From Chondrosia reniformis (taxonomy: Eukaryota; Porifera; Demospongiae; Chondrillida; Chondrillidae), in NCBI GenBank assembly GCA_947172415.1, contig OX359194.1, forward strand, positions 806,001 to 870,000: a stretch of DNA of 64,000 bases. Direction: 5' to 3'. Shown piece by piece: positions 7,692 through 60,830 of the stretch. The notes beneath the pieces were generated by a model. That model was given only the letters and a program-made list of their open reading frames with translations. It ran no database searches and was not told where the DNA came from. The translations under genes and the position numbers were made by a program. The number at the start of each line of letters is the position of its first letter. The first letter of the stretch is position 1.

Positions 7692-10600
7692 ATGGCGTTT
7701 ACATCTGGATTGGTTTCTCTCCTCATTTGGAGCGTCCTTTTCGTTACGAAAAGTAAGTAAAATCACTTCAGGTCCAGTTAATAGGTAAAAGAAATACGTT
7801 ACTATTAATAAATATAATATCCAGGTAAAATTAGTCCTACGGTCGCGTTAGTAGGTACTTAGGCTAGTACCATAGATTATACGTATGTACATGTTTGTAT
7901 ATACATTCTATATACAGCTCTGCTCTGCTAATTTCTTAAAAATTTAGTTTGCATTGATCCTTGAATGACTTTTATTTTCTTACAGTTCAGATGACCAAAT
8001 CTCAAGCAACTACTATTACAGTAGCGACCACTCCTTTTCAAACTACTACCATCACTGTAACACCTACCATTGGTCAATCAGTAGAACTGCAGTGTGTCAC
8101 TACAGATTATAAACTATGGTACACTACAGGAAGTGTTGTAACAGCCACTGGAACTGAAGTAACTATAGGAAGTGGACCTACTAGGATATTGGCCTTCTCT
8201 TCATTCGTTCCAAGTCATGCTGGAACATACACTTGTTTGGTATCTGCTCCTGCTGATACTCAGACAAAGACAACCTACCCTGTGGTACTTGGTGAGTCAT
8301 TATGTGATAATCTTACAATGATTTCATGTAAACATATCATTAGGTTTGGATTGTTACTGTAACATTAAAAATTAGAATGTCAAAACATCCTATACTATAG
8401 TAACATATTTACATTTTTGCTGTTGACTAATTCTTATTTCTTTTAGTCTCGTACAAATTTATACACAAATGTTATAACACTTTATTATGTACGTATTTGT
8501 AGCTTTCCGTAAGCTAAAGGTTTTTTCCTTTTTCTGCTATTTTCCGTAAGCTAAAGGTTTTTTCCTTTTTCTGCTATTCTTTATACTGTATATAATTTGG
8601 AGGATACTTAGGGTCAGTTAAGATTACAACTATATACCCAACAAGTGGCCAAGTAATTTCAGTGGGTGGAGCGGGATAGCAACATATTAAGTTTTTAACT
8701 CGCACTATATATTAAAGAACCTGCATTTCAAAGAGGAATAGTTTTCATTAATTGTGTTGCTTTTAATGCAACAATGTTATACTGTTTATTTCTGGGTGAC
8801 AAATTCTGTCTAGTCAAATGATTGTTTGATTTATTAGAACAATGCTTTTAGGGTGTTTTAGTCAATAAGTTTCTCTTCTGTAGTTAATCCATCAGCTATC
8901 AACACCTTAACAGTTGGAAGGACTGATGATCCAACTACTCCTATCACTATAACACCTACCCTCAGTCAACCTGTAAAGTTGGAATGTGTTAGGCCTAATA
9001 CAGCAAAAAACTGGTTCACTAGTGGAACTGCAGTAACTAACACTCCTGGAGACCTTTCTAATATACCTTTAACATTCGTTAGAACAATCACTATCTCATC
9101 ATTCAGTCCATCTCATGCTAAAGGATACACATGTACTGTTAGTGCCACTCCACTTAGTACTTATCCAGTAATATTAGGTGAGTGATCATTAATTAGAATG
9201 GCTTACTTTCCTAAGCATTTAGTACGTATCCAGTAATACTAGGTGAGTGATACAACAATTATAGTTCATAAAGATAGTTATAATGCTTCAGAATCTTTGA
9301 AGTTTCATTAACCAAGGCATGTGTGACATTTTGATAATTAGTGAATTATCTAATACACTGTATTCCAAAAGCTATTGTTATCACAATGTTTATGAGGAAA
9401 CAAAGAGAATTGACTGGAATACAATTTCTTAGACTAAGGACTTAGGACAAACTTATATTTGAATATGGATACAGTTAGGCTTTGTTTATTCCTTTCGCCA
9501 CTGTGCCAGACAGCTGTTTCAGTGAATTCGACCCTTCAGCAGTGATCCTTTCTTCTTTGTCGTTTTGAGTGAATAATCATGCTTAACATTGTAAAAGTAG
9601 ACAATTCAATTACTATGAATGGCTAAGATAAGATGCTTACTTTCCCATTGTGACTTTATTTATTGACATTTATACAATGTAAACAAAACACTGCCTTTAC
9701 AAACAATATATTAAATCGTTTTTATATACACTGCATGTGCATTATAACTGTTCTCACTGGCTGTCAAAAGGTTACCATTTAATTAATGGCAACACATTAA
9801 TTATGGTATTTTGTTTGTTATTTATGCCCATATAAGGCAGACAAAGTGTAAATGATAAGCCAAAGCAGAGGAAAGTCTATTAGTCTAGTTAGGAGCATAT
9901 TATGTGTACAGTTCAATTGTTTATCAGTTCCAGTTTGATTGATTATGTTATATAACAAGCCAAAACAGAGCATTTTTATCATTTTCCATTTACACAGAAA
10001 CTCCACCTCCTCTACCTGAAATACCTCCACCATCTCAAGTACAAGGAGTCATGTTAACTGGAAGTGGAACATCTTTGACTGTTTCATGGACTGCAGTAAC
10101 TGGAACTGATCCAATGTACGATATATTATATATAGTTAAGTATTCAACTGATAGCGGTACTGAAACAGATCCACCATCTGATGCTATGAAGAGATCAGGA
10201 ATTTCAGCTACATCAACTACACTGACTGGACTTCAATCAGGTACCACCTACTATGTTTGGGTAGCAGCTGAAATCCTTGGTGCTGGAGTTCAAGGACCTT
10301 ACAGTATGAGAGTTTCAAATGCAGGTCAGAAAGTATCTTATAATTAATCTTGTAAATGGAAATGTCATATATGGAATATCTGTATAAACAATGACTAGCT
10401 ACAGAAATGATATTTGTGTACAAAAGACAAATTTGATATACAATGTACATCTTAGAACATTCACTCTACCAATAATGATGTCTTGCAGTATTAAAAGTGT
10501 TTACTTAATTAATAAAGTAGAAAACTAACATTGGCTTGTTTCACTTTGATTTAATTCAAAAGAATTTTTGAATTATATACATACAATGGGAAAGTAGTAA

Positions 10601-60400: not shown

Positions 60401-60830
60401 CACAGAAAATGGTACAAATACAGAAATTGACTTTTTCCTGGCAAACATCTATATGGCCTTAGGACTGTTAGAGAACCTTTGTACATACCAAGTTCTTATG
60501 GTCGATTTAAAATATACACTTTTATCCTATCAATGTGACAGCTATAGTTTACTTATTTTCATTAACTGAATCAATTAAAGGGAAAATATCAGCTATTATG
60601 TACATGGTAAATGTGGAAGAAGGTATCTTCATTATAAGCATCTTATTACATGGATGGATATTATACATAGTACCTATATATATATATACATATAGCAAAA
60701 TATGGTCACTATATATGTAGGTATAATAAGAAGCAATATTTTGTATAACACCTGTTACTTATATACCTTTTAAAAATGCTTGTATAATCACAAAGACTAC
60801 GACAAAGAAAGTTGTAGTTGACGTGATCAT
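42344..60830 (-). CDS. Gene R: receptor-type tyrosine phosphatase, 2 Ig + 9 FN3 + TM + D1 + D2
   Basis: A 31-exon minus-strand gene encoding about 1751 residues, with frame and phase kept through every junction. Order: signal exon (60767-60830), two Ig domains, nine FN3 domains, one membrane helix ([20 protein letters not shown]), a short juxtamembrane region, catalytic D1, and a degenerate D2 that ends at TGA 42344-42346. It removes phosphate from tyrosine on partner proteins at the plasma membrane. The ectodomain exons at the 5' end are copies of exons found in the plus-strand receptors A-C, whereas FN3 domains 5-9 have no close match there. Domain details are in the separate entries. The signal exon is the least certain part; the rest is well supported. 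Confidence 0.88.
43720..43915 (-). repeat. Dispersed repeat copy in a D2 intron
   Basis: Inverse of 22870-23070 in gene B: TACTAATACTATGTAACGT, GCTTGCGCAAAAACG and a GGCGCCCC block occur in the expected order. It lies between two D2 exons of gene R. Confidence 0.55.
44816..48729 (-). CDS. Gene R membrane helix and catalytic domain D1
   Basis: Exons: 48600-48729 (TM), 48274-48359, 48109-48212, 47966-48047, 47637-47710, 47433-47469, 47271-47368, 45808-45936, 45432-45592, 45097-45232, 44816-44971. D1 motifs in order: [36 protein letters not shown] (from a 37-base micro-exon), [28 protein letters not shown] (the WPD loop with its acid Asp), VVHC then SAGVGRTG (the P-loop with nucleophile Cys and Arg), and MVQNLDQYVF (Q-loop). 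Every catalytic residue is present, so D1 should be active. The phospho-Tyr recognition position is Phe instead of Tyr. A MITE-like repeat fills the intron at 45937-47270. Confidence 0.92.
45995..47105. mobile_element. MITE-like element with inverted ends and repeated TTTCACACTTGAACTAGTGA
   Basis: The left arm (about 45995-46285) has CACGTTACCAGAGCAACCGG, GATATCTGGGGTGTTATA, two or three copies of TTTCACACTTGAACTAGTGA and CTTATCATCACCTTAC. The inverse of these pieces lies at 46730-46855 and 47035-47105, the right arm being split by about 180 bp of other sequence. A third, partial copy is at 63726-63970. No coding capacity; located in a D1 intron of gene R. Confidence 0.65.
48907..57831 (-). 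CDS. Gene R ectodomain exons
   Basis: Ig: 57523-57831, 56808-57098. FN3 1-9: 55831-56145, 55048-55338, 54574-54846, 53489-53755, 52288-52581, 51631-51909, 50249-50560, 49593-49778 plus 49431-49523 (one domain split by an intron), 48907-49182. All junctions are phase 1. Ig 1 matches the first Ig exon of A, C and L; Ig 2 matches those of A and L. FN3 1 matches 9998-10324 (A) and 27773-28099 (C). FN3 3 and 4 match 21593-21865 and 22433-22699 in gene B. FN3 domains 5-9 have more ordinary phosphatase-receptor sequences (for example [18 protein letters not shown]) and look older. The donor after 49431 (GTTGTC) is weak. Confidence 0.85.
50645..51255 (+). mobile_element. Penelope-like fragment bounded by inverted terminal repeats
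   Basis: The centre encodes, on the plus strand, [20 protein letters not shown] then [11 protein letters not shown], a GIY-YIG nuclease half with the Cys pair, TYIGE, and Arg and His residues; it is broken by a stop near 50914 and a frameshift. The ends are inverted copies of about 120 bp: GGACGTTTCAACCCATAGGT on the left and ACCTACGGGTTGAAACGTCC on the right, with AACCATTCATCATTTATCAT-type inner parts. It lies in the intron between FN3 6 and FN3 7 of gene R. Confidence 0.8.
53770..54449 (+). mobile_element. 3' end of a non-LTR retrotransposon with (TAA)n tail
   Basis: A frame at about 53790-53910 reads [20 protein letters not shown] then [12 protein letters not shown], the Cys/His-type C-terminus found after reverse transcriptases of several non-LTR families. 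About 480 bp of GC-richer 3' UTR follow, with AGCCTTAAGTGGCGATG occurring twice, and then a (TAA)n run at 54401-54449, a typical retrotransposon tail. Strongly 5'-truncated. It interrupts the intron between FN3 3 and FN3 4 of gene R. Confidence 0.7.
58685..58757. repeat. Short inverted repeat
   Basis: CACATACTTCTGTGTTTGG and CCAAACACAGAAGTGTATGG are inverted copies separated by about 25 bp. Probably a small MITE remnant. Confidence 0.55.
58830..60300 (+). mobile_element. Decayed non-LTR retrotransposon (endonuclease and RT remnants)
   Basis: Order on the plus strand: an endonuclease-like GDMNTKVG and [18 protein letters not shown] near 58845-58985; the reverse transcriptase core [11 protein letters not shown] at about 59645; the post-RT segment [18 protein letters not shown] and [14 protein letters not shown] near 59905-60050; and a following [15 protein letters not shown] stretch. 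Many stops and frameshifts separate them. The domain order fits RTE/CR1-like elements. It lies in the long intron between the proposed signal exon and Ig 1 of gene R. Confidence 0.75.
60767..60830 (-). CDS. Proposed signal-peptide exon of gene R
   Basis: ATG to donor encodes [19 protein letters not shown] then LKG, a convincing hydrophobic signal peptide, and exits in phase 1 at GTATAT, matching the phase-1 acceptor of Ig 1 at 57831. The intron would be 2.9 kb, enlarged by the non-LTR relic. No copy of this exon exists elsewhere in the window; genes A-C and L use different signal exons. The donor is only moderate, so another first exon is possible. Confidence 0.45.

Follow-up and report, generated by a model that had tools for sequence, protein, structure and literature searches.

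Can one pool of extracellular exons serve both a receptor phosphatase and receptors with tyrosine-bearing tails, and what might such a combination do? The question is raised by a stretch of 64,000 nucleotides from chromosome 6 of the demosponge Chondrosia reniformis (C6:806001-870000, designated as the window; positions without a prefix are counted from its first letter), which lies inside a cluster of receptor-type protein tyrosine phosphatase (RPTP) genes of ~640 kb. The minus strand carries an RPTP gene, R, and the plus strand carries three genes, A, B, and C, whose predicted products end in short tails with three tyrosines. The initial annotation had proposed that R and A–C are built from closely related immunoglobulin (Ig) and FN3 exons under two tail types, and comparison of the exons and of the introns between them bears this out. 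We give even chances to the wider reading that these genes are members of a single, large receptor family that is diversifying, with mosaic ectodomains and two outputs, which would be opposed via a shared contact and have a role in recognition. The genome searched was one haplotype of 117,379,552 bases in 15 contigs (contig 6, 8,731,016; contig 12, 7,521,688); in the available text of its description, the assembly odChoReni1.1 has 14 chromosomes and a mitochondrion, with chromosome 6 of 8.73 Mb and chromosome 12 of 7.52 Mb (PMC12181767). Contig 15 of the genome searched carries a match to cox1 that contains in-frame TGA codons.

The identities between R and the window genes at the DNA and amino acid levels, respectively, are 94/92% (A) and 91/90% (C) for FN3-1, 88/77% (A) and 88/81% (C) for Ig1, and 88/77% (A), 75/62% (C), and 75/60% (B) for Ig2. 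The set of Ig1, Ig2, and FN3-1 that had been described as common to R and A–C is therefore present in A and C; B shares Ig2 only, its Ig1 being broken and its FN3-1 absent. The further FN3 pair of B does match FN3-3 and FN3-4 of R as proposed (93/83% and 95/89%). The similarity also spans introns, extending over 1252 bp at 81.8% between R and A and over 1787 bp at 81.8% between R and the neighboring gene Q, and thus reflects paralogy and not chance; an ancient similarity confined to exons is ruled out because the introns are similar too. As in paired receptors, closely related ectodomains are found on members with different signaling ends.

R is predicted to encode, from ectodomain to tail on the minus strand, a putative signal peptide (exon 60765-60830), two Ig domains, nine FN3-like domains, a transmembrane (TM) segment, and two protein tyrosine phosphatase (PTP) domains designated as D1 and D2. 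Ig1 (57523-57831, with Pfam Ig matches) and Ig2 (56808-57098) are followed by FN3-1 (FNa, 55831-56145), FN3-2 to FN3-5 (52288-55338: FNb 55048-55338, FNc 54574-54846, FNd 53489-53755, and FNe 52288-52581), and the membrane-proximal FN3-like domains at 48905-51909 (FNf 51631-51909, FNg 50250-50561, FNh, and FNu). Clean AG/GT boundaries in phase 1 delimit eight of the ectodomain exons; the TM segment (48599-48730) is approximate, and the PTP exons were read as fragments that are not splice-joined. D1 (44786-48231, approximate limits) contains the WPD loop (exon at 45434) and an intact catalytic signature (SAGVGRTG, exon at 45103). In D2 (42337-44330, approximate limits), the signature CSDGMGRTG retains Cys and Arg, and WKGD is found where WPD is expected. 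A 106-residue piece of D1 compared with solved structures gave the top scores to PTPRS, LAR, and PTPRF. With its Ig and FN3 ectodomain, single TM segment, two PTP domains, and catalytic D1 signature, R has the predicted make-up of an R2A-type RPTP.

The models of A–C were predicted from AG/GT sites, with phase-1 ectodomain exons and with TM and tail exons joined in phase 2. Without the signal exon, they encode 800 (A), 771 (B), and 714 (C) residues with no internal stops. A comprises a putative signal-peptide exon (7692-7757, predicted), Ig1 (7986-8291; the homologous R exon has Pfam Ig matches), Ig2 (8884-9177; Pfam Ig_3 with E 4e-4, below its cut-off), FN3-1 (FNa, 9998-10324), four more FN3 exons between 11674 and 14808 (11674-11964, 13299-13589, 14078-14383, and 14518-14808), a TM exon of the TMs type (15052-15244), and a tail exon with the stop codon (15454-15559), whose tyrosines lie in DYEAP, SYDTV, and TYEKV. 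In B, the putative signal-peptide exon (16635-16700, predicted) is followed by the Ig1 remnant (17369-17519), Ig2 (17734-18036), a second Ig exon of Ig1 type (18860-19147), five FN3 exons within 21017-24236 (21593-21865 matching R FN3-3 and 22433-22699 matching R FN3-4), the TM exon (24481-24673), and the tail exon (24883-24988). The window model of B thus holds no intact Ig1 and no FN3-1, and as the exons are symmetrical in phase 1, B could run from the signal exon to Ig2 past the broken Ig1. C has a putative signal-peptide exon (26061-26126, predicted), Ig1 (26634-26939), Ig2 (27115-27423), FN3-1 (27773-28099), a third Ig (29998-30306) that sits between FN3 domains, two further FN3 exons (30886-31212 and 31379-31651), the TM exon (32117-32306), and the tail exon (32507-32612). 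Three tyrosines are present in the tail exon of each gene, as had been noted initially; the limits 7692 and 60830 given at that time correspond to the outermost putative signal exons, those of A and R.

The sharing of modules reaches beyond the window. Gene T (C6:1815-1822 kb, L031) reads Ig1-Ig2-FNa-FNb-FNc-FNd-FNe-FNh-FNu, after which come a TM exon of another kind and a tyrosine tail (GDYEAPGIPLDTNPAYNVVNTYDTIGE); the gene has nine of the 11 ectodomain modules of R in the order of R, including the last FN3, with FNf and FNg missing. A gene on chromosome 13 (L034) reads FNs-FNv-FNv-FNc-FNd-FNe-FNf-FNg-FNh-FNu before its tyrosine tail (CEYEAPGIAMDTNPAYDMVNTYDKVGE) and shares the last seven, membrane-proximal FN3 modules of R. 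These two genes together indicate that the ectodomain modules common to RPTPs and tyrosine-tailed receptors can extend as far as the FN3 nearest the membrane. Rows under 60% of the seed length and rows with stops were left out of the module survey. A search with FNg gave 16 matches, of which two are those of R and Q, eight more lie at C6:916-1250 kb, a further two at C6:1.51 Mb, and the remaining four on chromosome 13; FNb was found only in R and T within the stretches read and has 74 matches genome-wide. By identity, the nearest exons to R Ig1 and Ig2 are those of the tyrosine-tailed gene V (92% DNA and 84–85% amino acid; 90–91% and 81%), and the nearest to R FNc, FNe, and FNu are those of RPTPs. 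As a side observation, the introns in tandem arrays of the FNb exon (C6:1851577-1852929, C6:945319-946302, and P0001) seem open in frame over hundreds of codons.

Symmetrical phase-1 exons would also allow a single gene with alternative 3' ends, spliced to either a PTP or a tyrosine tail. The arrangement of the locus speaks against this. A, B, and C are genes in their own right, oriented opposite to R and Q, and each ends in a single TM exon and a single three-tyrosine exon; within the stretches read, no PTP exon was found on the plus strand of the window, and neither R nor C6:600-800 kb was found to contain a tail or TMs exon. These strands and exon absences practically rule out alternative splicing between the tails.

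The same exchange of ectodomains between tail classes is seen in the exon trees, which were built from DNA with IQ-TREE on 15 to 23 rows. Gene K (chromosome 12) and two Ig pairs at C6:870-880 kb, to which no tail is assigned, were included in the trees and site counts and left unlabeled in the shuffles, and gene U, a tyrosine-tailed gene with divergent Ig exons, was excluded from the trees, selection, and loop counts. Tyrosine-tailed exons fall among RPTP exons, and the approximately unbiased (AU) test rejected a single clade of tyrosine-tailed rows for Ig1 (p = 0.032), Ig2 (0.0008), and FNa (0.00095). Tail type is unstructured on four of the five trees, where the minimum number of tail-label changes is close to the mean of 2000 shuffles (Ig2, 5 vs 5.32; FNa, 5 vs 4.58; FNc, 3 vs 2.83; FNd, 3 vs 2.83). 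Q, whose Ig2 and Ig1 (707-1674, minus strand) lie next to A in divergent orientation, is most likely an RPTP with PTP exons at C6:791-796 kb, P791 and Q being one gene (C6:800-806 kb between them is unread); Q and A are sisters for Ig2 with support of 100/100. C Ig1 joins an RPTP at 94/90 and C Ig2 joins three other RPTPs at 86/73, while R Ig2 groups with V, V2, T, and an unassigned gene at 91/90 and R Ig1 groups weakly (47/52) with V, V2, and A. It may be that V and V2 represent a single gene with two Ig pairs. Such different neighbors for the exons of one gene are in line with mosaic genes that evolved through exchange of exons or through gene conversion.

The two classes are part of a multigene repertoire and not of a simple receptor pair. 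PF00102 has at least 173 matches in the genome (150 of 531 candidates scored), dense at C6:611-1256 kb, and R Ig1 as the query gave at least 151 matches at E ≤ 1e-3 (150 of 287 candidates scored) on chromosomes 6, 12, 1, 3, 9, and others. The stretch read at C6:600-800 kb contains 13 RPTP genes, all on the minus strand. Ig2 and FNa are each present in 12 of these, FNc and FNd in 10, and Ig1 and FNe in nine, and five genes have all six modules together. The D1 signature HC-SAGxGR[TS]G is found in all 14 RPTPs read and WPD in 13 of them. One array member (C6:755927-763178) has WPN where WPD is expected and is possibly catalytically weakened, judging from this motif. Two lone D2-type PTP exons between array genes (C6:673158 and C6:702050, minus strand) are probably remnants of decayed RPTPs. 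Tyrosine kinase tails on the same Ig pairs were also considered; of at least 153 kinase matches in the genome (134 of 1104 candidates scored), none of those listed lies at C6:600-1260 kb, C6:1.80-1.88 Mb, or C12:5.19-5.38 Mb.

The tyrosine tail is itself a conserved element. Its exon has 21 matches genome-wide, 18 of them at E < 1e-6: six in the RPTP cluster (three in the window; one of the six spans query positions 10-35 only), three at C6:5.09 Mb, six at C6:1.81-1.88 Mb, and three on chromosome 13. Two of the three weak matches are in the RPTP cluster and one is on chromosome 12 at 5365473, in the same Ig cluster as the gene L030 described below. The three tyrosines are kept in all eight tails read (A, B, C, U, V, T, and two on chromosome 13). 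The A and B tails end in ...RRSTDEDYEAPGIAMDTNPSYDTVNTYEKVGEPAM, from which the C tail differs at a few residues. The first motif is YEAP, the second is YDTV or YDMV in seven of the eight tails and YNVV in T, and the third is YEKV, YENV, YDKV, or YDTI; the last two tyrosines are six residues apart, and the residue after Tyr is acidic except in the second motif of T. The immunoreceptor tyrosine-based inhibitory (ITIM), switch (ITSM), and activation (ITAM) motifs are defined as [SIVL]xYxx[ILV], TxYxx[VI], and YxxL/I-x6-8-YxxL/I, respectively. None of the eight tails contains any of them, since position −2 is Pro in the second motif and Asn in the third, and the first motif has Pro at +3. An activating role of A–C is therefore conjectural, and the likeness to activating/inhibitory paired receptors suggested by the initial annotation extends to related ectodomains on two tail types but not to canonical motifs or to a simple pair.

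Likely writers and readers of the tail tyrosines are encoded in the genome, judging by gene position. SH2 and tyrosine kinase matches in frames of equal length at C9:6.665-6.700 Mb resemble tandem Src-like genes in their placement, and two sets of SH2-SH2 then a PTP match at C3:9.107-9.117 Mb are SHP-like in the same respect. If the tyrosine-tailed members recruited SH2 phosphatases or acted as decoys, both classes would dampen signaling; the Y-x-x-V spacing, which occurs twice in most tails read, and the alternation of SH2 and PTP matches on chromosome 3 would agree with this. We nevertheless consider it quite improbable, as the Pro and Asn at −2 are not the Ser, Ile, Val, or Leu of an ITIM or the Thr of an ITSM, and the acidic residue after Tyr, lacking only in the second motif of T, does not favor it in view of general SH2 preferences.

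Excess amino acid change is seen in the loop segments of the Ig domains. The pooled ratios of nonsynonymous to synonymous change (pN/pS), calculated without near-identical rows (≤3 differences) and without one FNe row that is FNg, are 1.08 for Ig1, 0.98 for Ig2, 0.89 for FNa, 0.83 for FNc, 0.97 for FNd, 0.71 for FNe, 0.67 for FNv, and 0.65 for FNs, and 0.42, 0.21, and 0.29 for the PTP exons. Branch-counted ratios over whole exons are 1.26 (Ig1), 1.15 (Ig2), 0.86 (FNa), and 0.85 (FNc). Inspected by eye, the alignment of 19 Ig1 rows shows a nearly invariant framework with variable segments that follow the first Cys, separate YTTGS from ILAF, and precede TTYP; an AlphaFold model of Ig1 had a mean pLDDT (predicted local distance difference test) of 45.9 and was not used to place the loops. 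Between paralogues, the omega of the loop segments is 2.01 in Ig1 (190 nonsynonymous and 32 synonymous changes; rest of the domain, 0.77; Fisher p = 1.3e-4) and 1.86 in Ig2 (202 and 35; rest, 0.70; p = 4.7e-5), the p-values being optimistic because the loop limits, set at conserved Cys, Trp, and YxC, were chosen with knowledge of the alignment and of the counts per site and because the counts treat changes as independent and ignore gene conversion.

This post hoc counting weighs against the reading of one recognition family with opposed outputs, as do several other observations. The shared ligand that the initial annotation had suggested for R and A–C is not supported. The loops of R are identical to those of A, B, and C at 47, 31, and 72% of positions, respectively, for the Ig1-type domains (47% for the third Ig of C) and at 50, 38, and 33% for Ig2, compared with 69–91% in the non-loop remainder of the Ig domains. 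No RPTP/tyrosine-tailed pair with identical loops exists among the rows compared (Ig1, 11 RPTP and seven tyrosine-tailed; Ig2, 14 and six), the best cross-class identities being 84% (B Ig2 with an RPTP) and 82% (C Ig2). Mean loop identities are 48 and 44% in RPTP–tyrosine pairs, 47 and 43% in tyrosine–tyrosine pairs, and 61 and 59% in RPTP–RPTP pairs; as the rows are limited, a matched cross-class partner may lie elsewhere. The exon trees, which had been proposed as a check, support mixing of the tail classes for Ig1, Ig2, and FNa, but a tyrosine-tailed clade is not rejected for FNc (p = 0.142) or FNd (0.346), and the tail labels on the Ig1 tree are weakly clustered (4 changes vs 5.78; fraction at or below, 0.093). 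In the stretch read, no Ig exon accompanies the FN3 exons of the chromosome 13 gene. Two protein searches (~8000 candidates scored each) gave no named sponge homologue among the matches listed (best 120 of 271 and best 120 of 348), which are mostly unnamed or bacterial FN3 proteins, fish PTPRJ-type (eta) phosphatase, sea-slug sidekick, and the FN3 array P0001.

With these points taken into account, the opposed-output reading would work as follows. As the sequences show, the ectodomains are mosaics of Ig and FN3 exons in phase 1 that have been duplicated and passed between genes, and this common pool is joined either to a tyrosine phosphatase with two domains of R2A (LAR) type or to a short tail in which three tyrosines are conserved. 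Upon contact with a ligand or a partner cell, co-expressed receptors of both classes may cluster; Src-type kinases would then phosphorylate the tyrosine-tailed members, and these would bind SH2 proteins, which the YDxV-like motifs suggest to be adaptors of Nck or Src type acting in actin or adhesion signaling. RPTP members in the same contact would strip those phosphates, and the balance of engaged members could set adhesion, acceptance, or rejection. A more specific form, in which a single Ig-FN3 repertoire, shuffled and under positive selection, sets silencing phosphatases against signaling phosphotyrosine tails as the receptor side of sponge allorecognition, is possible, though we lean against it. 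If true, the receptors themselves would encode the activating/inhibitory logic of vertebrate immunity without an ITIM, and if the two classes oppose each other, they would constitute an early-branching animal version of the immune-receptor plan built directly from a receptor phosphatase.

A rival explanation is a family for adhesion and tissue sorting with no self/non-self role, in which the RPTPs would be LAR-like and the tyrosine tails nephrin-like docking sites for actin adaptors. The R2A-type D1, the Ig-FN3 ectodomain, the loops that differ between the two classes, and the YDxV-like motif, as described for nephrin (PMC11247170), are all in line with this. Nephrin signals partly via three cytoplasmic YDxV motifs that recruit Nck among others, according to the available text of the same source (PMC11247170); the sponge tail also has three tyrosines, but only one or two of its motifs fit YDxV, the first being YEAP. 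In our judgement, loop omega values near 2 and the numbers of R Ig1 and PTP matches are unusual for pure adhesion, and we hold this explanation to be rather doubtful. It is less probable still that duplication and exon shuffling joined tails and ectodomains at random, leaving A–C as by-products of birth and death without opposing function. Mosaic exons, the broken Ig1 of B, varying FN3 numbers, and the element-like open reading frames (ORFs) and repeated stretch within the cluster are what such turnover would leave; open frames across six to seven ectodomain exons in each of A–C, the retention of three tyrosines in every tail read, on different TM exons and on chromosomes 6 and 13, and the greater amino acid change in loop segments speak against it.

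Vertebrate paired receptors (KIR, LILR, SIRP, and FcR-like) likewise place related Ig ectodomains on different signaling ends and are clustered and fast evolving. Their inhibitory members recruit cytosolic SH2 phosphatases through ITIMs, whereas in the sponge the phosphatase is the receptor itself and canonical ITIM/ITAM motifs are absent from the tails. The R2A phosphatases LAR, PTPRS, and PTPRD share the Ig then FN3 ectodomain and the two PTP domains; the sponge family differs in its large tandem expansion, its diversifying loops, and the modules it has in common with non-phosphatase receptors. We know of no phosphatase members among the Hydractinia Alr genes, and none were searched for. These genes are comparable as allorecognition candidates with ITAM/ITIM motifs in the available text of a 2025 review (PMC12065747). 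The Botryllus fester/FcoR proteins are alike as Ig-type allorecognition receptors with tyrosine motifs in the tail, which are ITIM, hemITAM, or a core Y-x-x-I/L/V of unknown function (PMC12065747). Some Botryllus loci swap tail motifs by alternative splicing, and the ampullae in which these receptors are expressed also express CD45-like receptor phosphatases; in the text available, the review describes no PTP tail on the same ectodomain, and the domains are variable Ig, sushi, and two C2-type Ig with no Ig-FN3 ladder (PMC12065747).

Among sponges, the Ig receptors of Geodia also carry Ig-like domains on different tails, and they are set beside the present family by description only. In Geodia cydonium, Ig-like domains occur on adhesion molecules and an RPTP as well. 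The receptor tyrosine kinase of this species is a sponge receptor with Ig-like domains, and the available text of the cited work describes no RPTP/tyrosine tail swap in Geodia (PMC12018476). More widely, no description of a tail-swapped RPTP/tyrosine receptor system was found in the literature searched, which was mostly open-access, older Geodia papers lying outside it. The sponge, cnidarian, and ascidian candidate allorecognition proteins are not conserved between them, and the invertebrate mechanisms are called a mystery in the part of the 2025 review available (PMC12065747). The gene set named here shows the marks expected of such receptors, namely large clusters, mosaic exons, an excess of change in Ig loops, and two outputs, and makes the family, on its gene structure, a candidate for sponge cell-discrimination receptors. 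The loci are defined well enough for expression and polymorphism work on grafts.

An Ig1-Ig2-FN3 gene on chromosome 12 (L030, C12:5207001-5217000) has next exons that match Calx-beta weakly in a hand-joined piece (E 0.02, below the cut-off), the only point of contact with the sponge aggregation factor. That factor is a different type of protein from these receptors. With L030, the common pool of ectodomains may have a third class of output; no tail was recognized in the 1.9 kb read beside the Calx-beta-like piece. The aggregation factor is presented as a candidate for sponge self-recognition in the available text of two sources (PMC5450542, PMC12065747).

The window also contains elements other than these receptors. 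Within gene C, positions 29348-29921 are 94% identical to C12:5209342-5209938 and are possibly a mobile element. ORFs at 1731-2621 (plus strand) and 33413-33655 (minus strand) resemble, by eye, reverse-transcriptase/GIY-YIG (Penelope-like) remnants. Beside gene A, an intronless DUF2961 ORF (6145-7359, plus strand) has relatives in Amphimedon, Corticium, Ephydatia, Sycon, and corals, and one match of 99%.

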